Of a DNA stretch of 64,000 nt, positions 741 to 61,578 are shown in pieces; positions within the stretch are counted from its first letter, which is position 1, and each line of letters begins with the position of its first letter. A program made the position numbers and the translations under genes. This DNA is from an uncultured Lentisphaeria bacterium (GTDB lineage: Bacteria; Verrucomicrobiota; Lentisphaeria; Victivallales; UBA1829): positions 1 through 64,000 of the forward strand of contig CASDPB010000126.1 in the NCBI GenBank assembly GCA_949282305.1. The letters run 5' to 3'. Below the pieces are notes generated by a model that did no database searches, had not been told where the DNA came from, and saw only the letters and a program-made list of their open reading frames with translations.

Positions 741-1838
741 ATGCAGAACAACAGTAAAAAAGATTTGAAAAGCAAATACAACCCCATTGTTCCGGTTCCG
801 TTGTTTCAGCTGATCCGCGACCGGATTCTCCTGGAACTCTACGAGAACTCCTATTCTCCCGGCAGTGTCCTGGGTACAGAGGGAGACTTGTGCCGTAAAT
901 TTCAGGTCAGCCGGAAAACAATCCGCCATGCCGTCAGCAAACTGGAAGTCGTCGGCTACCTGAAACGGCGTCAGAAGGTCGGTATTATTGTAACGGACAA
1001 AACGCTGCAGGTATGCTCCGCACCTAAAAAAGGACGCAAGGTAATCATACTCCTGCCCCGATGGAACTACACAACGGGCAACCAGGTGGAGCGGGTCATT
1101 GCACATGATCTCAGAATGCCGGAACCATTTCTCGAAGCATTTGACGTTGAAATGCGCCCGTTTCATGAACCGCTGCCGGAAGATACCAGAAATCTGTATG
1201 CCGTCATTGCTGTGGATCCGCTTCCCCAGCATCTGCCGACCTTGGAAAAATTCGCGGATGGCGGAATTCGGATCATCGCGGTAGAACCGCGTACCAATTT
1301 TTACATGGCTGTCAATGTGCATCCGGACATCCCCGCCGCGGCACGTGACGCGATAGCCTATTTATACAGACAGGGGCATCGACGCATTGGACTTGTATGG
1401 CATTATTGCAATCATTACACATTTCAGCAATGGCTGAACAGTTTTATTCAGGCAATGACTGAACATGAACTGCCGATCCTGCCTTATTCCATACTTGAAA
1501 ATGCGGATATTCCGAATTCTGACGACGTCTGTTTCCGGAAAATCACCGCATGGATCTGCCTTACCTTGTCAAATCTGGAAGTCCTGCTGGAACACTTGAA
1601 AAAACTGAATCTTTCGGTACCGCGCGATGTTTCAGTCATCAGTGCGGACGCTCCCATCGGCGGCGAGTGGCAGACGCATAACATCCCGATCTCAATCTAT
1701 ACACCAAATACAAAGGAACTGGTGCTGCTTCTCCGTAAACTGCTGAAATCCGCACCGGGAGCCTTACATCCGGGCTCGGTCATGTTTTACCCGATGACGC
1801 CCGCCTACCATCAGAGTGTGGCAAAATGCAGACAGTGA
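741..1838 (+). CDS. GntR-type winged-helix regulator with LacI-like sensor domain
   Basis: This is a 365-residue transcription regulator. Residues about 15-90 form a GntR winged helix (PLFQLIRDRILLELYE, then FQVSRKTIRHAVSKLE and the wing GYLKRRQKVGIIV). Residues about 100-365 look like a periplasmic-binding-protein fold of the LacI/AraR kind, for example AIAYLYRQGHRRIGLVW. Such hybrids normally bind a sugar and release an operator. The gene points away from the GH1 stub and towards the prepilin-heparinase pair, so either could be a target (inference). The start is odd: the nearest purine-rich stretch (AAGGAA, 709-714) is about 27 bases from the ATG and a stop codon blocks any upstream start in frame. 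The ligand is unknown. Confidence 0.8.
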   Translation: MQNNSKKDLKSKYNPIVPVPLFQLIRDRILLELYENSYSPGSVLGTEGDLCRKFQVSRKTIRHAVSKLEVVGYLKRRQKVGIIVTDKTLQVCSAPKKGRKVIILLPRWNYTTGNQVERVIAHDLRMPEPFLEAFDVEMRPFHEPLPEDTRNLYAVIAVDPLPQHLPTLEKFADGGIRIIAVEPRTNFYMAVNVHPDIPAAARDAIAYLYRQGHRRIGLVWHYCNHYTFQQWLNSFIQAMTEHELPILPYSILENADIPNSDDVCFRKITAWICLTLSNLEVLLEHLKKLNLSVPRDVSVISADAPIGGEWQTHNIPISIYTPNTKELVLLLRKLLKSAPGALHPGSVMFYPMTPAYHQSVAKCRQ

Positions 1839-2154
1839 TTGCAGACCTGCTTTTCCCTGTCATAGTCATAACGGCATAAGAATGCAGTCCTGAACAAATC
1901 CTGGTTTTCAGAAAAGGATGATGCCGGATGCCGTTTGACGCGATGACTTATATGTCCGGTCCGCTTTTTCATGGCTGACAAGCTCTCCGGAATCTGTTGA
2001 ATCATGAGCGGGCGAGCTTCACAATCCGGCGATGCGCTCCGAATCCGCAGACCATTTCCGGAAATGTCGATGAATGCCGTCGGAACTGTCATCTCCGGGG
2101 AACATCATATTCGGCGACAGCATAAAAAAATAGATTTTTTTTCGTTTCCGCCTC
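1839..2154. other. 316-base gap without a supported gene
   Basis: A 93-codon open frame on the minus strand (1811-2092) covers most of this gap, overlaps the regulator end and resembles no family I know. It has no convincing ribosome site. I see no hairpin terminator directly behind the regulator. Confidence 0.35.
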
Positions 2155-2181
2155 TTGACAATACGGAAAAATCTTTATAAT
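2155..2181 (+). promoter_or_regulatory. Sigma-70 promoter for the prepilin-heparinase pair
   Basis: TTGACA at 2155-2160 is followed by TATAAT at 2176-2181 with a 15-base spacer. Shifting the -10 to TAATAA at 2178-2183 gives 17. The predicted leader of about 80 bases is AT-rich and ends in a strong AAGGAGA site at 2251-2257. Confidence 0.65.
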
Positions 2182-2266
2182 AAATATTCAGGCAAGTGCC
2201 ATTACAGCATCGCTAAAATAATGTTTTTGATTTTTTTTTAAAATTTTAAAAAGGAGATTCCTTGAG

Positions 2267-3004
2267 ATGGAAAGAAGGTTTCAATTCACATTGATCGAAT
2301 TGTTGATCGTTGTTGCGATCATTGCAATTTTGGCGGCAATGCTTCTGCCGGCGTTGAACAAGACGAGAGAAACCGCCAGAGGAGTCGCCTGTCTGAATAA
2401 TTTGAAACAGAACGGTCTGGCGTTTGCCCAGTACTCGGATGACAACAACAATATGGTACCGCTGGCGTATTACCGGGTTTCCGGCACTGGTCGTTCCTGG
2501 CTGAAGTTTCTTGCCGGAAGCAGGGACTCCAAGGACTGGAAGTCAGAAACAAACGCTTATCTTGCAGGAGAGGGGACCGGGGTTTGTCCGTCGACATGGC
2601 CTTTCCGATACCATGCCGCCAGTTTTGACAGTGTTTATGGCGTAATGTACACTGATCCGGACAATCTTGACGAAGACTATAAGAATGCAGCATATAGAAA
2701 AAGCGATTATCTGCGCTATCTTATCCCGACACGGGCAAAAACACCGTCAGAGTGGATGGTTTTGAGTGACAGTCTCCGCAATTACAGTGGTCAATGGCAG
2801 GCCGCCTGGACGATCGGGCATGAACCCGCCCCGAACGGAACGACGGGCACGATATATTTCATACACAACAACAAGGCGAATCTGCTTCTGCTGGACGGTC
2901 ATGTGGCCGCTTTTACCATAACTGATACGAAGCCCATGAAGATTTACCGGATCACGAAAGTTTACAGGGGGACCGGAAAACAACTGGTCAGCATCGGCTA
3001 TTGA
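2267..3004 (+). CDS. Type II/IV prepilin-like protein with H-x9-DG motif
   Basis: This 245-residue protein has a prepilin N-terminus: a short basic leader MERRFQ, then [11 protein letters not shown] and a hydrophobic helix to about residue 29, ending in the [10 protein letters not shown] pattern typical of Lentisphaerota and Planctomycetes. The C-terminus carries H200...D210-G211, the H-x9-DG signature of that prepilin family. The residue before the cleavage-site Phe is Gln, where classical prepilins have Gly. It is expected to be processed by a prepilin peptidase and anchored by its N-terminal helix. The ribosome site AAGGAGA sits 9 bases from the ATG. The heparinase-like gene starts 16 bases after the stop, so the two are probably one transcript. 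The exact job of this expanded family is unknown. Confidence 0.9.
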
Positions 3005-3020
3005 AAAGGAGAGAGCATTC

Positions 3021-4862
3021 ATGTTTCGTTTTATTCTTATGATGGTTCTGGCGTTTGCCGGATTTTCCGGGATGGGGAAGAATGATGTTGAAGTGCAGTT
3101 CAAGCGATGGAGCCCCGTTCCCAATATCAGGGAACGTTCCTTCTGGGATGGAGAGGCGAAGAAAACTTACGCCGCGGGGATTCTTGCCGCCGCAGATCAT
3201 TCCGTGACAGTGAAGGAATATCCGCCGTCAGGTCTTTACATGTTTTTTTACGAGACCGGTAACAGATACCGGTATGAGAACGTTTACAGTGATTTCAGGC
3301 GGACCCTTTGCAATACGGTATTGGCGGCGTGTTTAAGCAATGGAGCGGAACACATCGCGGAAGCAAAACGGCTGATGCGTCTTGCCTGTGCCATGCCGTC
3401 GTGGATTTTGCCCGCCCATGACACTGACCACCTTGTGCATGATGGAAAAGCGATGCGGATCGAGCTTGTTTCTTCCGGAATGGGGCAGAACATCGCCCTG
3501 GCCGCGATGCTTTTGGAGCCGGAACTGGAGCCGGAACTGAAGCAGCTGGTCAAAAGGACGCTGGAAGCAAGAATCATCGGTCATTTTGAGGATATGACGA
3601 ATGGAAAGCAGAAGAAGGACTGGCTGGAATCAAGAATGAACTGGAACCCCGTCTGCCTTGAGGGGGTGGTCGGAACCTTGCTTGCGGCGGATATGAACGA
3701 CGTCAGACGTTCAGAACTTTTGAGGAAAGCGGTCTTTTATTCCCGGAATTACGTGAAGGGATTTTCAGGCGACGGTTATTGTTCGGAAGGCATGGATTAC
3801 TGGAGCTATGGACTGGGATATTATATGAGGATGGCGTTGAAATTCCATGAGGTCGGCAATGGTGCGATTGATTTGATGAAAGATCCGAAATTCCAGGCGG
3901 TTGCAAGATTTCCGGAACGTCTGATGCTTGCGGACGATGTGTTTCCCGCGTATGGCGATTCCAACGCATTTGCCAGGACTCCGCGTGCCCGTCTGGCGCT
4001 TGCGGCATATCTGCTGGGAGAAAAACCTGTGTATCCTTTGCCTGCGCCCAGTGAGAAATCTGCCAATCTGGGAGATACACTGCTGTGCATCATGCTTGCC
4101 GGAAAGGAGAGGGAAGTTGCTTCTGCGGGAAGAAAGGATGAGTTTCTTTCCGGATTTCCCGATTCGGGGGTGTTTGTCCTTCGTCCCGGTGAAAAGAAGG
4201 CGTGCAGACTTGCGGTTTCATTCAAGGGAAGACACAATCATGAAAGCCATAATCACAATGACGTTGGCAGTTACGTGATTTCCGTGGACGGGAAGTGTCC
4301 GGTCGTGATTGATCCCGGCTTGCCTGCCTATACACGCAGGACTTTTTCAAGCGAACGTTACAGCAGCCGCATTACCAACTCCTACGGGCACAGTGTCCCG
4401 CGGATTGACGGCCGGCTTCAGGTGGCGGGAAGGAATACGGAGGCGCATCTTCTGAAAAAAGAGATCACGGCTGATTCCGTTATGGCGGCGTTCGACATCA
4501 GGAATGCCTATCGCAACATTCCGGGCATCCGCAAACTGAACCGGACTTTCCGCTATTCGCGTTCCGGAAGCGGCTGTTTTCAGGTCATGGACGAGGCGGA
4601 ATTTGAAGAACCGAAACTTTTTGAAACGGCGGTCATCACATTCGGGACATTCCGGAAACTTGCGGACGACCGGTTTGCCGTTTCATACCGGGGAAAGACT
4701 TTGAAGCTCACGATCCATACGGACGGAGTTCCTTTTGAAGTGACCGGCGACTCTTTCCGCGACGACATCCGCTATGATAACGTAATGGTGACACGGCTTG
4801 CCGTAACGCTGAAGGACAAGGCGAAATCGGCAAGAGTCATGCTTGCTTTTGAACCCATGTGA
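3021..4862 (+). CDS. Heparinase II/III-like polysaccharide lyase, exported
   Basis: This 613-residue protein begins with a hydrophobic export signal (residues 1-18). An alpha/alpha-barrel domain spans about 60-360, with NWNPVC (207-212) and a Tyr-containing DYWSYG (259-264) at the places where family lyases hold catalytic residues. A beta-sheet domain follows, with the histidine-rich motif HNHESHNHNDVGSY (405-418) and VVIDPG. This layout fits the heparinase II/III, PL12/15/21-like group that cleaves uronic-acid glycans by beta-elimination. The substrate cannot be read from sequence. It sits behind the prepilin gene with its own AAGGAGAG site. It is convergent with the PHP gene, and the stops are about 50 bases apart. 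Confidence 0.85.
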   Translation: MFRFILMMVLAFAGFSGMGKNDVEVQFKRWSPVPNIRERSFWDGEAKKTYAAGILAAADHSVTVKEYPPSGLYMFFYETGNRYRYENVYSDFRRTLCNTVLAACLSNGAEHIAEAKRLMRLACAMPSWILPAHDTDHLVHDGKAMRIELVSSGMGQNIALAAMLLEPELEPELKQLVKRTLEARIIGHFEDMTNGKQKKDWLESRMNWNPVCLEGVVGTLLAADMNDVRRSELLRKAVFYSRNYVKGFSGDGYCSEGMDYWSYGLGYYMRMALKFHEVGNGAIDLMKDPKFQAVARFPERLMLADDVFPAYGDSNAFARTPRARLALAAYLLGEKPVYPLPAPSEKSANLGDTLLCIMLAGKEREVASAGRKDEFLSGFPDSGVFVLRPGEKKACRLAVSFKGRHNHESHNHNDVGSYVISVDGKCPVVIDPGLPAYTRRTFSSERYSSRITNSYGHSVPRIDGRLQVAGRNTEAHLLKKEITADSVMAAFDIRNAYRNIPGIRKLNRTFRYSRSGSGCFQVMDEAEFEEPKLFETAVITFGTFRKLADDRFAVSYRGKTLKLTIHTDGVPFEVTGDSFRDDIRYDNVMVTRLAVTLKDKAKSARVMLAFEPM

Positions 4863-7044: not shown

Positions 7045-9192
7045 TCAAAGATCCAGACCGCAGGGCAGAGGTTTCTTCCTGATGATCCGCCAGAACTGGA
7101 ACATGCCGCAGGCTGCCGCCGTGCAGAGAAACGGCAGTGCGGGGAGCAGGTAGCGCGGAATGGCGATCGGACCCGGCATGAAAACGTAATATCCGGCAAG
7201 CAGGAGCAGCAACAGCAGATGCAGAAAGTGTCTGCGGTCCAGCGACGTCAGGAGAAACCAGCCCAGCCCGAGCGCATAACACATATACAGAACCGCCGTC
7301 ATCGTGAAGGAGACTGTCATAATCAGCCGGGACGCGAATGAGGGCCGGTCTTTCCCGTTTTTCCCCAGGTCCAGGTTGCCGAACAGTGCGTTGAAATCGG
7401 GGGCTGTGATCCGGCGCAGGGAATCCATGCTGAAATGGAGTTTCAGATAACGGAATGGATGTTCCAGGATGATGTTCCACATTTTCTTATCCCGGTGTGC
7501 CAGCTGAGGGGCGAGCTGCGCATACTTCTCCGGATCGGAAGCGTAGAATGCCCGTTCCTCCTGACGATGCTTTTCGATATACGGCGCCATATCCCCGCTT
7601 CCTCCCAGATCGGCTTCGAGAGCGGAAGCGTTTTTCAGCAGGACTTCCGACGAAATCGTATCAATACGCCAGCCGATTCCCGCCAGCCGGTTGCCGAATG
7701 TCCACGGGAAGATCACCGCCGCGAACAGAAGCAGGGAAATGACAACATAATTGAACTTCAAAGCAGCGCGCAGCTTATGGAAAAAGAGGATTGCAATGAC
7801 ACAGGGAATAATCCAGAGGGCATTTGCGGGACGGATCAGAGCCGCGATTCCGGCAAGCAGAATTGCGCAGATCAGGTTCATCCCGAAAGCGCTTTTGATG
7901 AACCGGAGAAAGAAATAGCCTTGAAAGGCAACGATCAGCGTGAACAGCGTATCCGGCAGGAACATCGGGCTCAAGGCGACTGCCGTAGGGTTCAGCGCGA
8001 ACAGGAACCCGGCAGTCAGTCCGATGTATTCCGAACCGAAGAGACGCCCGGAAAAATAAACCGGGAAAACGACTGCCGCTCCAAGCAGACACCCCATTGC
8101 AATGCAGAATGCGAGACTGCCCCCGCCGACGGCGAACAGTCCTGCGAGCCATGCCGGATACAGCGGAGCCCGAACCTGATCCAGCGACGTGATTTCATAT
8201 GCGGGAGTGCCTGTCGGGAACACCGCAATGCTGGAAGGATAACGGGCGCGGAATGTCCCGTGCTTCAGTATCTGTCTGGCGGAGGTGAGGAAGGACTTGC
8301 TTTCGGTTCGCATCTGGAGGTCGGGGTTGTTCATGCCCGGCAGCGCGAACAGCAGACGGATTGCGGCAGCCAGAATAAAAACCGAAAAAAGCAGAACCGT
8401 CATCCGCTTTCCGCTGCGGACTGCGGCTGCCAGCTCCCGGGAGGAGGCGGAGACCCTCCGCCGGACGGCTCCCAGTGGCGTAAAACGCCAGCGGAGCGCG
8501 GTCCAGAGTCCCTGGATGCCGTCGCTCCATTTGATTTTTTTGCCTTCGCTGATCTTGCGCGGACAGTAGGAGACAGGGACTTCACGGATTGCGAATCCCA
8601 TGCGCAGAAGTTTTGCCGTGACTTCAGGTTCCCACTCGAATTTGTTCCCATCGATCGCGAGGGAACGGATCAGGGGACCGTCGAATGTCTTGTAACAGGT
8701 CGGCTCGTCTGTCAGATTGGAATGATAAAGCAGGTTGATCCAGAAAGTGAGCAGAAGACCGCCAAGATAGAATGACGGTGAAGAATAAAGCCGGTTCCGG
8801 TTTTCCTCTTCCCGTGAGCCGTAGACGACTTTGCACTCGCCGTCCAGTATTGGGCGGATACACTTTTCATAATCCCCCGGATCGTATTCCAGATCGGCGT
8901 CCTGAATGATGACGACATCCCCGGTCGAGGCGTTGATGCCGGTTTTGACGGCGGCTCCCTTGCCGCCGTTTTCCTGTGTCAGATAAAGAATCTTCGCCCT
9001 GGATTTCCGGTGATCCCGGATCCATTGTTCGATCAGCGCGGGAGAGTTGTCCGTTGAACCGTCGTTCACAATGATGATTTCCAGCGATGCGGACACGGCT
9101 GCCTGAATGACTTTGCCCAGGATGGCTGTGACAGTGCCCTCCTCGTTGTAGACAGGAATGATGACTGACAGTTTTTTCAATGTGGAACCCAT
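7045..9192 (-). CDS. GT2 polyisoprenyl-phosphate glycosyltransferase fused to a GT-C membrane transferase
   Basis: This 715-residue fusion has two parts. Residues 1-245 are a family 2 glycosyltransferase of the dolichol-phosphate-mannose-synthase type: VIIPVYNEEGT, VNDGSTDNS, the metal-binding DAD at 98-100, and EWEPEVTAKLLRMG. From about 265 to the end there are many hydrophobic helices with a PMT/ArnT-like region (a long loop after helix 1, then LYPAWLAGLF). The first part would load a sugar onto undecaprenyl phosphate. The second would transfer it on the outer face of the inner membrane. The start has GGGAGAA six bases upstream. The acceptor is unknown. Confidence 0.85.
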   Translation of the reverse strand: MGSTLKKLSVIIPVYNEEGTVTAILGKVIQAAVSASLEIIIVNDGSTDNSPALIEQWIRDHRKSRAKILYLTQENGGKGAAVKTGINASTGDVVIIQDADLEYDPGDYEKCIRPILDGECKVVYGSREEENRNRLYSSPSFYLGGLLLTFWINLLYHSNLTDEPTCYKTFDGPLIRSLAIDGNKFEWEPEVTAKLLRMGFAIREVPVSYCPRKISEGKKIKWSDGIQGLWTALRWRFTPLGAVRRRVSASSRELAAAVRSGKRMTVLLFSVFILAAAIRLLFALPGMNNPDLQMRTESKSFLTSARQILKHGTFRARYPSSIAVFPTGTPAYEITSLDQVRAPLYPAWLAGLFAVGGGSLAFCIAMGCLLGAAVVFPVYFSGRLFGSEYIGLTAGFLFALNPTAVALSPMFLPDTLFTLIVAFQGYFFLRFIKSAFGMNLICAILLAGIAALIRPANALWIIPCVIAILFFHKLRAALKFNYVVISLLLFAAVIFPWTFGNRLAGIGWRIDTISSEVLLKNASALEADLGGSGDMAPYIEKHRQEERAFYASDPEKYAQLAPQLAHRDKKMWNIILEHPFRYLKLHFSMDSLRRITAPDFNALFGNLDLGKNGKDRPSFASRLIMTVSFTMTAVLYMCYALGLGWFLLTSLDRRHFLHLLLLLLLAGYYVFMPGPIAIPRYLLPALPFLCTAAACGMFQFWRIIRKKPLPCGLDL

Positions 9193-9260
9193 AATTCTCC
9201 CGTTTTCTGAACCTGCAATATAGCATGGAAAACCGCAGGTTGCAAGTCGCCTCCCGTTCT

Positions 9261-10793
9261 CTAAAGAACGGGCGTCATCAGCGCGCAGATGCTTTCCAGA
9301 AGTTTCTGCGGACAGCTCCTTGAGGCGAGATAAGCCTCTCCCATCTCTTCGGAATTTTTCAGTTCCTCAAGAAACTGGCGCTGCAGAGCTTCGGCGAAGT
9401 CTCCCTGTGAGACCAGCAGATCCAGTTCATAGTTCAGGCGGAAACTGCGGATGTCGCAGTTGCTTGAACCGAAATAAGCCCACGCGCCGTCGACAAGCAT
9501 CGCCTTTGCGTGAGTAAACGTGCCGAGACGCTCGAAAACCCGCACCCCGTTGCCGATCAGCGATTCATAAAAACTGCGCGCCGCCAGCTTCACATACCAG
9601 TGATTGTTGTTCCGCGGCACGATCAGCCTTACGTCCACGCCGCGCGCGGATGCCATGCGGAGCGCCTTCGAGAAATCTTTCGACGGGGCGAAATAGGGGG
9701 AGATGATCCAGATTGACTTCTTTGCGGTCGAAGCCGCGGTGAAGAAAACTTTTTCCGAACCTTCAAACAGGTAACCGTGTCCGCTGGCGACGGCACGCAC
9801 AATGGAGTCTCCGCATTTTTCCGGCATGGGAAAGTAGTCCCGCGTGAAAAGATCCTCCTTGTTTTTTTCATGGGACGCATAGAACCAGTCGCAGAGGAAC
9901 GCATATTGAAGTTCGCCGACGGCGGGACCTGTCAGGCGGCAGTGGAAATCATGGATTTCCTTTTCGGGGCTGGTCATCCATTTGAAATTTTCCTCGCTGA
10001 TGTTCAACCCTCCTATGAATGCGGTCCTGCCGTCCACGATCAGCAGCTTCCTATGGTTCCTGAGCTGAATCCGCCACGGAGTCAGAAGCGATGCGTTGGA
10101 GAAGGGAATCATTTTGAGATTCGGCGTTTTTTTCAGGTAGGGCAGAAAAAAGAGGGAGAAAAGAGATTTGAAACTGCCGAAACGGTCGCAGATTACACGC
10201 ACCTGAACGCCTTCCAGCGCTTTTTTCTTCAACTCGCTCATCATGATCCGCCCGATGCGGTCGTCCGCAAAGATGAAGGTCTGCATATTGATGTTGTGCC
10301 TTGCGGAACGGATACATTCAATCATGGCCGGATAGGCGGCGGAGCCGTCGCAGAGCAGCTCCAGGCGGTTTCCCTTAAGCGGAATTGTTCCGGGGATCAT
10401 GGAGGCGGATGCGGGGTCTTCCAGCGCGGCATAGAGCAGAGAGTCCAGCATTCGGCGATGATCCATTGTGTCTTCCGCGGCGTCGCTGCGGGATATGAAA
10501 TGCTTCATGGCATCGCGGTAATCCTTGAGACTGCGGTGTTCCGCTTCATCCCTGTTTTTCAGAAACTCTTCGACCGCGTGCGAAATCCGTTTTCCCAGCG
10601 TATTTCTGCGCGTGATTCCGGCAAGCAGGTAAAGGATGATTCCCAGAACGGGAAGGCAGAGCACAAGAATGATCCACAGGGATGCTCTTTCCGAGTCATC
10701 GCGCATGGTAAACAGTATGTGCAGTATAATCAGAAGAACCGCAACGGCAACGATTCCCGCACAGATCAGATGTATCAGCTCAAAATGAGGCAT
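9261..10793 (-). CDS. cls: Cardiolipin synthase, phospholipase D family
   Basis: This 510-residue protein has two N-terminal membrane helices (about 8-30 and 38-60) and two phospholipase-D HKD motifs, HRKLLIVDG...GG and HAKAMLVDG...GS. It is full length for bacterial Cls. It joins two phosphatidylglycerols into cardiolipin plus glycerol at the inner membrane. The gene follows the coiled-coil protein gene by 18 bases, so they may share a transcript. The ribosome site before its ATG is weak. Confidence 0.93.
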   Translation of the reverse strand: MPHFELIHLICAGIVAVAVLLIILHILFTMRDDSERASLWIILVLCLPVLGIILYLLAGITRRNTLGKRISHAVEEFLKNRDEAEHRSLKDYRDAMKHFISRSDAAEDTMDHRRMLDSLLYAALEDPASASMIPGTIPLKGNRLELLCDGSAAYPAMIECIRSARHNINMQTFIFADDRIGRIMMSELKKKALEGVQVRVICDRFGSFKSLFSLFFLPYLKKTPNLKMIPFSNASLLTPWRIQLRNHRKLLIVDGRTAFIGGLNISEENFKWMTSPEKEIHDFHCRLTGPAVGELQYAFLCDWFYASHEKNKEDLFTRDYFPMPEKCGDSIVRAVASGHGYLFEGSEKVFFTAASTAKKSIWIISPYFAPSKDFSKALRMASARGVDVRLIVPRNNNHWYVKLAARSFYESLIGNGVRVFERLGTFTHAKAMLVDGAWAYFGSSNCDIRSFRLNYELDLLVSQGDFAEALQRQFLEELKNSEEMGEAYLASRSCPQKLLESICALMTPVL

Positions 10794-10811
10794 GGAATGG
10801 GAAGTGCCGGT

Positions 10812-11294
10812 TTATTGTTTCCTGGATTTTTTCGCCTTGTCGGCTTTCTTGTCGGCTTTCTTGTCCGCGTTTTCCTCATCCTTGCCGTCGTCGGAATTGA
10901 TTTTGCCGAAGGCTTCCAGCTTTTCAATTTTTTCTTTCAGGGCTGCCTGTTTTGCCTCCAGCTTTTCGATCAGGGCGGCATTTTTTTCTTTCTCTGCCTC
11001 GTCTTCCGACTTCAGCGCCAGTTGCTCTTCAACCGCCTTCAATGCCTTTTCGTATTTTGCCGTTTCTTCCCTGACGGCATTCTTCAACGCCTGTTTTTCT
11101 TTCTTCAGGTTTGTTTCTGCTCTTTTGCGCGCGGCATTGTTTTTGGCTTTCTGAAGTCTTTTCTCCGCGCGCTTGATTGCGTTGATCTCCTTGGTGAAAG
11201 GATTTTTTTCTTTTTCATCCGCAAGAGCATCGGAGACAAACAGAACGGATGCCGCAAAAACTGCGGCCAGCGAAATTTGTTTCAGCAATGACAT
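10812..11294 (-). CDS. Small exported lysine-rich coiled-coil protein
   Basis: This protein of about 160 residues has a clear signal peptide (LLKQISLAAVFAASVLF, cleavage near ALA-DEK). The rest is almost wholly charged helix (heptad-like runs of K, E, A and L to about residue 130), then a low-complexity tail with repeated DKKA. No enzyme motif is present. I chose the ATG at 11294 because AGGAG lies seven bases upstream, rather than the GTG two codons earlier. It probably acts in the periplasm, perhaps binding the envelope or nucleic acid through its basic tail (speculative). It lies just upstream of cls. Confidence 0.7.
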   Translation of the reverse strand: MSLLKQISLAAVFAASVLFVSDALADEKEKNPFTKEINAIKRAEKRLQKAKNNAARKRAETNLKKEKQALKNAVREETAKYEKALKAVEEQLALKSEDEAEKEKNAALIEKLEAKQAALKEKIEKLEAFGKINSDDGKDEENADKKADKKADKAKKSRKQ

Positions 11295-56621: not shown

Positions 56622-56654
56622 GAAACCTGATTCAACTATTTGAAAGGACTGTTC

Positions 56655-59600
56655 ATGAAACTTGATTTCCGCATCGACTGGGGATACCAGTATCTGTATT
56701 CGCGCTGCCATTATCATCCCGTCTACCTCTGGGATGGAAGACTGGACTGCGACGGCGGCAGGATCGAAGAAACTTATCAGCTGGATTATCCGGTCATCTG
56801 GTACGGTCCCGGGCATTGTGCGCACGAGACGAAACTCGCCGAACCGAAGTGGAAGAACCGCACGCGCAGGGGGCTTTCCGGAGTCCGTTTCGTGGCGGAT
56901 GCGGATGAGAATGCGACGTTCCGTCTGACTACGCTTTCCGGCACATTCGATTTTTCCGCAAAAGAGATTCTCGAAAACGGCAGGATCGTATTTCCCGTCG
57001 GCCCGAAGTATCTCGGATGCCATGTGATCGTGACCCGTACAAACTATCTCTGGTTCCGCCCCGCGCCGAAAGACGGACAGCAGGTCTGGGAGGCGGACGA
57101 TCTTCCGCTTCCGGTTCATGACTGGGCGCGGATGCGCACCGCATGGCTTGCGCCGGGCGAAACGCTTGAATTCGAGGCGGAAATCCCGGAGAGGAAAGCG
57201 GATTTCGTCGAAAACATTCTGCATATCGTCGGCATGGCGGCGCCCGGTTACACGCCGGAGAAAGAGAAACAGATTCACGACACTTTTCCGATGACTCTTT
57301 TCTGCGACGGCGGGGAGGTGGCGCAGTTCGCCCATTATTTCCGCGAACATGATGATTTCATGCAGATGCTGGAGGATGTCTGGGTGTGTTTTCAGGCGGC
57401 GCCGGGCAGACATACCTTCGGGATCAGAAACGGCAATCCGCAGTTTTATCTGCTGTTCAGCCGTCTGATTCTCCAGCAGAGCACGCACAATCACCTGGAT
57501 TTTTCCCTGCCTCCGTGGGCATTGGTCAATGAGCCGCTGACCGGGCGCATTTTCGCGGTCTGCCCGGACGAGGTCACGATCCGCTGGCAGGGCGGCTCGG
57601 CGGACTGTGTGCTTCAGCCCGGCTGGAATGATTTTGAGTTCACTTTATCCCGTCCCGGAGTGAATGTCGCCGTCGAAGCCGGCAATTCCTCCGGCGTGAT
57701 TCCGGCGGTTTATGCGCTGGCGGACGAAACGCCGCGGGTGACGGTCGGTTATGACATGACCGTGGTGCCGCATGACGGAAACGGGTTCATGGACTGGCTG
57801 CTGGACTACACATGGCGGACCCGTCTCGGCAATCTTGTGGTGTTCCGCGCGTTTTTGCGGAAAGACCCGCATTCCAGTGAGGCGGTTTCCGTCGATCCCG
57901 CACTGATGGCGCGCTGGGGCGAATTCTGCCGGAAACATCATATCGCTGTGGAGGCGGCGACGGATTTTGACGACGGCGCACTGGTCAGAGCCGCCGGAGA
58001 TGCCCTGCACAGCGTCGGCAGACACGAATGGCCCGGAGCCGTTTATGCGTTCGACCCGAAGGAACCGTGGAGTTCCGGCGATATGAAGGAGGCAATGGAG
58101 CACTATCTCAAATATCTGAAGATTGAGATCGACCGCGCCCACAAGGCAGCTCCCCGCGCGGCATTCGGGGATGCGTCCGGCGGACACCGTTACTGTTACC
58201 TTGCGGGAGCCGATTTCATCCGCACGGAGACGATGGTCCCGCATACTCAGCATCTCTGTTCACAGGCGCGTCCGGCGGCGGAATCGCTCGGTTCCGGCGA
58301 GTGGGGGGTGCATATCGCGATCCAGCACGCGGTCCAGCCTTATTTTGAAACGCATCTCGGCATGTATTTCCTCTCGCTTTTTCAGCCGTGGATGATGGGG
58401 GCGTCGATGATTTACGAAGAAGACTGCCTGTTCCAGTTGTTCAAGGAGGAGCGGCAAAGCTGGGACGACGCCCTCACAAAAGGCAAGCGCGATATGACGC
58501 GCGACTTCTACCGTTTCGTCAGGACGCATCCCCGGACGGGAAAAAACAAGCGCAATATCGCGTTTCTTGAGGGACGCTATGCGGCGCCGTTCAACGGTTT
58601 TATCTGCGATGTCGAACAGACTCCCGAATATTCGGTATGGGGACTGTTCGGGAATCCCGATTCCGCATGGGGGCACGGGCAGCCGGAAAAGTGCCGCCAG
58701 CTTCTGGATGTCCTGATGCCCGGCGCGAACACGCATCCGCTGCGCCAGCGTTACGACCGCCGCCGCTTCTTCTTTTCCGGCACGCCTTACGGGGATTTCG
58801 ACGAAGTCCCGGCGGAGGCGGAAAGCGGATATTTCCATCAGTATGAATTGCTGCTGAATCTCGGCTGGAACACGATGATTGCCGAGGATTATGAAAAACT
58901 GTGCAGTTTTGTTGAAAACGGCGGAACACTTTTTACCGGGCTGCCGCAGTTCAGCACGCATACGAAACGCGACTTCCTGCACGACTGGAAAGATCTTGCG
59001 CTCTGGAACGGTGGCGATCTTTCCGAGCTCTGCGGAGTCAGAGTGGCCGGTCCCGGCGGGGAATACAGCGGACAATGGAACGCCGCGGGACATGAGGCGT
59101 TTCCCGAGCCGGAGCTTTCCGCGCTTCCCAGCCGTTCCGTGGACGAGGACGGCCCCTGCCGTCTTGCCGAGGTGGAGCTTGCCGGAGCGGAAATTGTCGC
59201 GTGGGACGCCGCGAACGGCAAGCCGCTGGTCGTGCGGCATCAACTCGGGAAAGGGCAGGTCTATCTGTTGACGGCGTGGGCGTATCCGGGGCATGAGCGG
59301 CTCCAGAAGGTTTCCGCATCGTGGATTGCAAAGCTTGCCGCGGAGCATCGCGGAACGGTCTACGCGGATGATCCCTCAGGGGAGGTCTTCTGGACTCGCT
59401 GGGAGGAGGAAAACGGCTGTTCGCGCCTGATGCTCCTGAATACGGACTGGACGAAATCCAATGCAAAAACGGTCGGGATTCATACACCGGGTTATTTTTT
59501 CCGGACGCAGGTGCAGGAAAGAGTGCCTCTGCTTCTGACCCTGCTCCCGTTTGCGGCGCTTGAACCGGATTTTGAGGTTCACACCGAGATTCTTTCCGTC

Positions 59601-59756
59601 AGTGAAGACAGCGCGCGGCTCCGTTTCCACGGGACAGGCGTGAAAAATCTCCGCATTCACTGGAAACACGGCAGAAAAGAGACCCGTCTTCTTGACCTGC
59701 ACCATGCCGGCACCGTGCTTGAGATGGAACTCACAGCCTCCGAGGAAGATCGTTGA
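56655..59756 (+). CDS. Large protein of unknown function, possibly a carbohydrate enzyme
   Basis: This 1033-residue protein has no signal peptide. I do not recognise the family. The middle (about 380-660) may be a TIM barrel: it has acidic residues on strand ends such as VEAATDFDDG and GADFIRTETMV. The part near 730-800 resembles the glutamine-amidotransferase-like domain of GH42 enzymes (YEKLCSFVENGGTLFTGLP). The N-terminal region is rich in beta-strand and aromatics. ATG 56655 follows GAAAGGA. It is followed, tail to tail after six bases, by an AraC gene. Glycan use is an inference from context. Confidence 0.5.
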   Translation: MKLDFRIDWGYQYLYSRCHYHPVYLWDGRLDCDGGRIEETYQLDYPVIWYGPGHCAHETKLAEPKWKNRTRRGLSGVRFVADADENATFRLTTLSGTFDFSAKEILENGRIVFPVGPKYLGCHVIVTRTNYLWFRPAPKDGQQVWEADDLPLPVHDWARMRTAWLAPGETLEFEAEIPERKADFVENILHIVGMAAPGYTPEKEKQIHDTFPMTLFCDGGEVAQFAHYFREHDDFMQMLEDVWVCFQAAPGRHTFGIRNGNPQFYLLFSRLILQQSTHNHLDFSLPPWALVNEPLTGRIFAVCPDEVTIRWQGGSADCVLQPGWNDFEFTLSRPGVNVAVEAGNSSGVIPAVYALADETPRVTVGYDMTVVPHDGNGFMDWLLDYTWRTRLGNLVVFRAFLRKDPHSSEAVSVDPALMARWGEFCRKHHIAVEAATDFDDGALVRAAGDALHSVGRHEWPGAVYAFDPKEPWSSGDMKEAMEHYLKYLKIEIDRAHKAAPRAAFGDASGGHRYCYLAGADFIRTETMVPHTQHLCSQARPAAESLGSGEWGVHIAIQHAVQPYFETHLGMYFLSLFQPWMMGASMIYEEDCLFQLFKEERQSWDDALTKGKRDMTRDFYRFVRTHPRTGKNKRNIAFLEGRYAAPFNGFICDVEQTPEYSVWGLFGNPDSAWGHGQPEKCRQLLDVLMPGANTHPLRQRYDRRRFFFSGTPYGDFDEVPAEAESGYFHQYELLLNLGWNTMIAEDYEKLCSFVENGGTLFTGLPQFSTHTKRDFLHDWKDLALWNGGDLSELCGVRVAGPGGEYSGQWNAAGHEAFPEPELSALPSRSVDEDGPCRLAEVELAGAEIVAWDAANGKPLVVRHQLGKGQVYLLTAWAYPGHERLQKVSASWIAKLAAEHRGTVYADDPSGEVFWTRWEEENGCSRLMLLNTDWTKSNAKTVGIHTPGYFFRTQVQERVPLLLTLLPFAALEPDFEVHTEILSVSEDSARLRFHGTGVKNLRIHWKHGRKETRLLDLHHAGTVLEMELTASEEDR

Positions 59757-60765: not shown

Positions 60766-61578
60766 ATGGCGACACTTCGTGACAGGCTATGGCTCTGGGG
60801 ACAGTCCCCGGGATCGCATCACAGAGAGAGCAACAACCGCTACCGTCTTCCGGGAGTCAACCGCATGACTCCGGCGGAGGGGTGCGAATTCTTCGGAATT
60901 CCGAACTGCTGCCGCGTGGTGATGGAAAATCTTCCCCCGCCGCCTTTTGACCCGGAGTCTGAAGCTCTGAAACACCTGAAGCAGGTGGTGTGGTCCGTGG
61001 TCGGTTCCGGCGGTTCATCGCGGACCGACGCAAAGCTCGGCGATCTGGAGGAGGTTCTTGACCAGGCGCGGAAATATCCGAATGTGACGGGCGGAGTGCT
61101 GGATGATTTTCTCAATGCGCGCCGCAGGGAGCTTTTCTCCCCGGCGGATGTCGCTCTTTTCCGGGAGCGGCTGCACCATGAGACCGGGCGGCGTCTTGAT
61201 CTCTGGGTCGTGCTTTATGCGCATGAGATATCGCCGGAAGTCAGGCCGTATCTTGAGGAATGCGATGTGGTGACGTTCTGGACATGGCGCGGAAAAAACC
61301 TGGAGCGTCTGGAGGAGAATCTTGACACGGTCATTGCAATGACGCCGGGGAAAAGGCGTCTTGCCGGATGTTACATGTGGAATTACGGAGAGTCAAAGCC
61401 GCTGACGCCGGAACAGATGAAGCATCAATGCGAAGTCTATCTGAGGTATGTCATGGACGGAAAGATCGAAGGCATCATCTTCTGTTCCAACTGCATCGCG
61501 GATCTCGGAATTCCGGAAGTGGAGTGGACGCGCCGCTGGATCGCGGAACATGCGGATCAGGTCGTCCCGGAAAAATAA
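60766..61578 (+). CDS. Conserved-looking 270-residue protein of unknown function
   Basis: I do not recognise this family. The protein is cytosolic (no signal), with alternating strand and helix segments such as LDLWVVLYAHEIS, VTFWTWRGKNLE, LAGCYMWNYGES and IEGIIFCSNCIADLG, which suggests a partial TIM barrel. The conserved-looking Trp, Tyr, Asp and Glu residues on strand ends would suit a carbohydrate-binding pocket. The gene is divergent from AraC and 47 bases upstream of the LamG gene. An operon with it is possible. Confidence 0.5.
   Translation: MATLRDRLWLWGQSPGSHHRESNNRYRLPGVNRMTPAEGCEFFGIPNCCRVVMENLPPPPFDPESEALKHLKQVVWSVVGSGGSSRTDAKLGDLEEVLDQARKYPNVTGGVLDDFLNARRRELFSPADVALFRERLHHETGRRLDLWVVLYAHEISPEVRPYLEECDVVTFWTWRGKNLERLEENLDTVIAMTPGKRRLAGCYMWNYGESKPLTPEQMKHQCEVYLRYVMDGKIEGIIFCSNCIADLGIPEVEWTRRWIAEHADQVVPEK

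Follow-up and report, generated by a model that had tools for sequence, protein, structure and literature searches.

The window, i.e., the whole 64,000-nucleotide stretch of DNA from an uncultured Lentisphaeria bacterium that was analysed, contains a gene for a 1033-residue protein that forms a single unit, with a carbonic anhydrase gene diverging upstream and an AraC gene converging downstream. The reading frame runs from the ATG at 56655 to the stop codon at 59754–59756 in the ORF list, and the following features, all on the forward strand, were assigned to it.

56643–56648, forward: Shine-Dalgarno-like AAAGGA, 6 nt 5′ of the ATG (read from the sequence)
56655–59756, forward: coding sequence of the 1033-residue protein (ORF; full-length orthologues; start kept in orthologues)
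56655–57719, forward: N-terminal beta-sandwich region, residues 1–355 (AF2 secondary structure; alignment)
57072–57488, forward: CBM35/CBM6/CBM36-like beta-sandwich, residues 140–278 (VIA)
57732–58550, forward: predicted (beta/alpha)8 barrel, residues 360–632 (DSSP on two models)
58026–58028, forward: Glu458, after strand 4, proposed catalytic carboxylate (53/53 in the family)
58227–58229, forward: Glu525, end of strand 6, proposed catalytic carboxylate (52/53; Gln in one)
58311–58313, forward: His553, end of strand 7, near the clan GH-A nucleophile position (His in 47/53)
58419–58421, forward: Glu589, end of strand 8, third invariant carboxylate (52/52)
58557–59348, forward: GH42M-type Rossmann, trimerisation-like domain, residues 635–898 (weak PF08532; hhalign vs GH42)
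59361–59744, forward: C-terminal beta domain, residues 903–1030 (DSSP on the model)

The start of the protein (MKLDFRIDWGYQ...) is kept in most orthologues, and an in-frame TTG at 56640 is a less likely upstream alternative. Judged from sequence, 56655–59756 is a genuine gene and not a chance ORF, because full-length orthologues exist (50–83% identity) and those with 81–83% protein identity share merely 78–80% of their DNA. No signal peptide was recognized by eye, and the protein is probably intracellular.

The full-length orthologues came chiefly from rumen and gut Lentisphaeria and Kiritimatiellae. Near-full-length orthologues (52–83% identity) were present in nine other genomes among the 61 searched, and the genome collection yielded 32 orthologue loci, hosted by Lentisphaeria/Victivallales, one Kiritimatiellae MAG, and five rumen or horse MAGs labelled Clostridia. 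More distant relatives (20–38% identity) that have the barrel and the Rossmann domain in common with the target were spread across Verrucomicrobiota; they comprise compact proteins of approximately 610–780 residues, which lack the N-terminal beta-sandwiches, and others of 840–1180 residues. Besides one full family member, the genome of origin has one further family-profile match (contig C128), limited to the Rossmann region of a PF02449-positive GH42-like protein. This genome also holds a large set of GH42-like enzymes, in that PF02449 (GH42) was matched 26 times and GHL6/GH151 9 times at E ≤ 0.001.

The orthologues in the five Clostridia MAGs (L049–L051, L053, and L055) were shorter (approximately 963–971 residues, 58% identity), and the one at L053 was cut off by the end of its contig. 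The GC contents of these genes and their flanks were 58–61% and 45–59%, respectively; either horizontal transfer or mis-binning would explain their presence. At L059, an orthologue and a distant family member of 1029 residues lie approximately 4 kb apart (1078–4164 on the reverse strand and 8001–11132 on the forward strand), and at L061 (7977–11050) the orthologue is broken into frames of 589 and 450 residues by a frameshift or an assembly error.

Searches against named families returned no Pfam family above threshold, no NCBIfam match, and no significant match among PDB sequences by phmmer. The sole Pfam match was the sub-threshold Glyco_hydro_42M (PF08532) at residues 730–875, whose 16.4 bits fall short of the 25.8-bit cut-off. 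The target had no match to the GH42 catalytic profile PF02449 (Pfam, E up to 1), and its locus was absent from the PF02449 matches listed for its own genome. Likewise, it matched neither the GHL6 profile PF14871 nor the 6tvk sequence (both GH151), had no Pfam match to the GH106 profile PF17132 and was absent from the own-genome matches listed for that profile, and had no Pfam match to the xylose-isomerase-like PF01261, with a profile-profile similarity of only 0.3%. No GH164 chain was listed when the PDB was searched with the family profiles (hmmsearch). The best PDB match of the barrel profile, IMP dehydrogenase (E 0.009), was taken as a general barrel resemblance. A literature search found no description of such a family. 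The family is thus unnamed in Pfam, NCBIfam, and PDB sequences and is, by sequence comparison, a candidate new glycosidase family; the earlier note's description of an unknown family agrees with these results, and its suggestion that the protein may found a new glycoside hydrolase family is reasonable, given that no classified family matches by sequence.

The AF2 model of the whole protein had a mean pLDDT of 86.6 and a pTM of 0.90, with low-confidence loops at residues 461–470, 591–610, and 641–670, and an independent model of the barrel alone (pLDDT 88.6) reproduced all eight strands (DSSP: 363–367, 394–397, 431–434, 451–454, 502–506, 521–526, 551–554, and 585–588). The possible TIM barrel of the earlier note was thus recovered in both models, and the later domain that it called GH42-like corresponds to the PF08532 match. 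Its amidotransferase label was borne out only as far as the Rossmann fold, which the GH42M domain has in common with amidotransferases; kinship beyond the fold was unsupported. We rejected a class I glutamine amidotransferase, as the domain has the GH42M-type Rossmann fold and no obvious catalytic Cys was found: reading the stretch around GGTLFTGLPQFS revealed none at a nucleophile elbow, and Pfam GATase was unmatched.

Among solved structures, residues 357–965 best matched the GH42 enzyme 3tts in VIA (Z 13.9, rmsd 4.2, 504 aligned), followed by GH164 6t5o (Z 13.7), GH106 6q2f (Z 13.4), and GH151 6tvk (Z 11.2), while the barrel alone was closest to GH164 (Z 17.7). A Foldseek search with the isolated barrel put D-psicose/tagatose 3-epimerases at the top (E about 1e-6, TM ~0.5). 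The absence of a family from the match list of a fold search was not counted against that family. Residues 140–278 resembled 2w47 (VIA; Z 13.1, rmsd 2.0, 122 aligned) and 2cdp (Z 12.1). In profile-profile comparison (hhalign), the Rossmann domain scored 97.9% (E 5e-13) against GH42, 66% against GH151, and 48% against GH106-like proteins, and on this sequence evidence it is homologous to its GH42 counterpart, whereas the barrel had no detectable profile-profile relation to the GH42, GH151, or GH106 barrels. P711, G713, and D716 are invariant in the Rossmann domain.

The alignment of 54 family members spans 259 barrel columns, exactly three of which are acidic at ≥95%: E458, E525, and E589. The earlier note took the lack of a barrel or of clustered acidic residues in a predicted structure as its refuting case, and its proposal survives that check: a barrel is predicted, and in the models these near-invariant glutamates would lie where strands 4, 6, and 8 end. 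Their side chains would face the pocket, as the strand-end positions and the invariance suggest. Further strongly conserved residues are N393, R539, W550, G551, and H553. Strand 7 carries the motif WG-x-H-h-A-x-[QEGC], with no conserved acid in the family alignment. The strand register was derived by counting strands in the two predicted models and by comparing spacings to the Rossmann domain with those in Bs164 of GH164, whose strand-7 nucleophile E297 precedes domain B by 93 residues (PMC7105311) and whose W336, here read as strand 8, precedes it by 54 (position from PMC7105311); in the target, H553 and E589 lie 82 and 46 residues before residue 635, respectively.

The GH42 beta-galactosidases (e.g., 3tts, 5xb7, and 1kwg) have the barrel, Rossmann trimerisation domain, and C-terminal beta domain that are predicted here for the target, but the target lacks a PF02449 match and a conserved strand-7 Glu, its barrel sequence is not detectably related to theirs, and it has an additional N-terminal region of 355 residues. 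Of the clan GH-A features, the Glu ending strand 4 is present (E458) and the nucleophile Glu ending strand 7 is missing, with the register taken from predicted models; because His553/Gln557 occupy strand 7 where the GH-A nucleophile sits, the target should not be assigned to either GH42 or this clan. The GH164 beta-mannosidase Bs164 (6t5o) likewise has the three-domain architecture and a Glu on strand 4, with N159-E160 and the nucleophile E297 on strand 7 (PMC7105311), whereas His/Gln stand in that part of the target. The GH151 alpha-L-fucosidase ALfuk2 (6tvk) resembles the target in architecture and has its catalytic acids on strands 4 and 6 (nucleophile D154 and acid/base E235, respectively; PMC10154630), a pair that the target has by position (E458 and E525). 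However, GH151 carries Asp and the target Glu on strand 4, and the Rossmann domain of the target is closer to GH42 than to GH151. The GHL6 proteins examined here were clear GH151 relatives (6tvk, E 7e-166) and have an Asp (GDQ) in the stretch here read as strand 8. The structural match to the GH106 alpha-L-rhamnosidases (6q2f) extends over 460 residues, and GH106-like proteins gave a weak profile match over half of the barrel plus the Rossmann domain (90%), but this signal was lost with the barrel alone. A spacing parallel with GH106 (E461/E593 vs E458/E589) was dropped because the base Glu of GH106-like proteins lies in an SSETF motif, read as strand 7, and because the barrel-only profiles are unrelated.

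Our leading interpretation, held with moderate confidence, is that the protein is an intracellular exo-glycosidase of an unclassified family, probably a trimer, with a GH42-type core, a Glu458/Glu525 pair helped by Glu589, and alpha-linked sugars as the likeliest substrate class. The three-domain core would stand behind the extra N-terminal beta-sandwich region, which includes the CBM35-like fold, and the Rossmann domain of one subunit would probably close the active site of the next. We infer the catalytic layout from predicted models and residue conservation: the active site of this presumed hydrolase would be built from Glu458, Glu525, and Glu589 and not from the GH-A strand-4/strand-7 pair, with Glu589 positioning the sugar or water. 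The strand-4/strand-6 layout occurs in GH151 and GH29 and is used by alpha-glycosidases; hence the likeliest substrate by analogy would be an alpha-linked sugar imported as an oligosaccharide. Glu458 and Glu525 most likely form the catalytic pair in a GH151-like layout, which is preferred because GH151 is the known strand-4/strand-6 precedent in the same architecture (D154/E235; PMC10154630).

The three glutamates could also serve an inverting glycosidase, in which Glu458 would be the general acid and Glu525 and Glu589 would hold and activate water. The presence of three and not two invariant carboxylates is consistent with this, as is the general acid plus distinct general base described for GH106, a related barrel enzyme (PMC6828813), but the nearest enzymes by architecture are retaining (GH42 and GH164, and probably GH151), and we regard inversion as possible but doubtful. 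Similarly tentative is a broader reading, in which a GH42/clan GH-A scaffold that has lost the strand-7 nucleophile works with glutamates on strands 4, 6, and 8, perhaps together with a metal bound via Glu525/His553/Glu589, and constitutes a new glycosidase family; if so, a single trimeric scaffold has accommodated two or more catalytic layouts, something that GH151 already suggests.

A diverged member of clan GH-A seems unlikely. Glu458 would then be the acid/base and position 557, after strand 7, the nucleophile site, and Gln557 would give the target an altered mechanism or make it a non-cleaving binder. VIA places the barrel closest to GH164/GH5/GH42, and a weak hhalign alignment sets Gln557, not His553, opposite the GH42 nucleophile; this position is Gln in the target's group and Glu in the compact relatives (16/53 relatives). 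However, other members have Gly, Cys, Met, or His there, so it is no family-wide catalytic residue, whereas E525 and E589 are family-wide, and strand 7 stops at residue 554 in the model. We likewise consider it unlikely that the protein belongs to an existing CAZy family that has no entry in Pfam, NCBIfam, or PDB, in which case the novelty would be confined to sequence: a handful of sequences has sufficed to found several recent CAZy families, but the searches above yielded neither a Pfam, NCBIfam, or PDB sequence match nor such a family in the literature.

Least probable is a metal-binding barrel, in which Glu525, His553, and Glu589 (with Asp506) would bind a divalent metal like the xylose-isomerase-like ketose 3-epimerases or the GH106 calcium site: the Foldseek ranking favours it, and the 3-epimerase ligands, Glu/Asp/His/Glu on strands 5–8 (E152, D185, H211, and E246), have nearly the spacing of target barrel positions 163, 182, 210, and 246, but the TM to epimerases is low, VIA puts GH barrels first (no epimerase is among its best 50 matches, which is not counted against them), profile similarity to PF01261 proteins or PDB epimerases is lacking, position 506 is Ser/Gly in compact relatives and position 553 Trp in four relatives, and the GH42-type domain set suits a glycosidase.

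Returning to the Glu458/Glu525 glycosidase, the kind of protein would be ordinary, and what appears new, as far as the models go, is the unclassified family and the unusual placement of its conserved acids. If the strand-4/6/8 layout is true, the trimeric GH42 scaffold has been reused with a different catalytic arrangement, and a trimerisation domain is no longer grounds for annotation as a beta-galactosidase. Rumen and gut members of the Lentisphaeria and Kiritimatiellae hold large sets of unclassified carbohydrate enzymes, among which this family is a concrete target for enzyme discovery: its core is defined, its orthologues are numerous, and three particular Glu residues can be named.

The earlier note placed the gene in a glycan region, next to the AraC gene and a 270-residue protein; the genomic context did not support a glycan cluster that takes in these two neighbours. 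One sister genome (G002) keeps the AraC-270 aa-LamG block, beside which a target-like gene is reduced to a C-terminal stub, and in two others (G001 and G003) intact orthologues are sited elsewhere, away from this block; the block is thus no functional cluster with the target, and outside the genus neither the AraC gene nor the 270-residue gene is associated with it. The target-like gene appears to have been lost by deletion in G002, where the stub (L169; G002:C2:38500-47500, 3389–3550) retains the C-terminal 54 codons (residues 980–1033, 52% identity). Flanking genes were diverse at 24 orthologue loci, with GH20 in 3 of 90 neighbours and GH123, DUF4838, and BNR_2 in 2 of 90, counts too few to assign a substrate. 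The neighbours in the window did not recur beside orthologues, except for scattered AraC-, GH2-, and GH78-like matches. AraC genes converge on the orthologues at L033 and L034, and a GntR/LacI-type regulator adjoins the one at L036; such neighbours fit sugar-induced expression and are silent on which sugar. The 270-residue neighbour (window 60766–61578), unmatched in Pfam, belongs to its own family in Victivallales, contains a GGVLDDF motif, and has two more matches in its own genome, one with 47% identity (C128:99846-100652) and a distant one with 25%.
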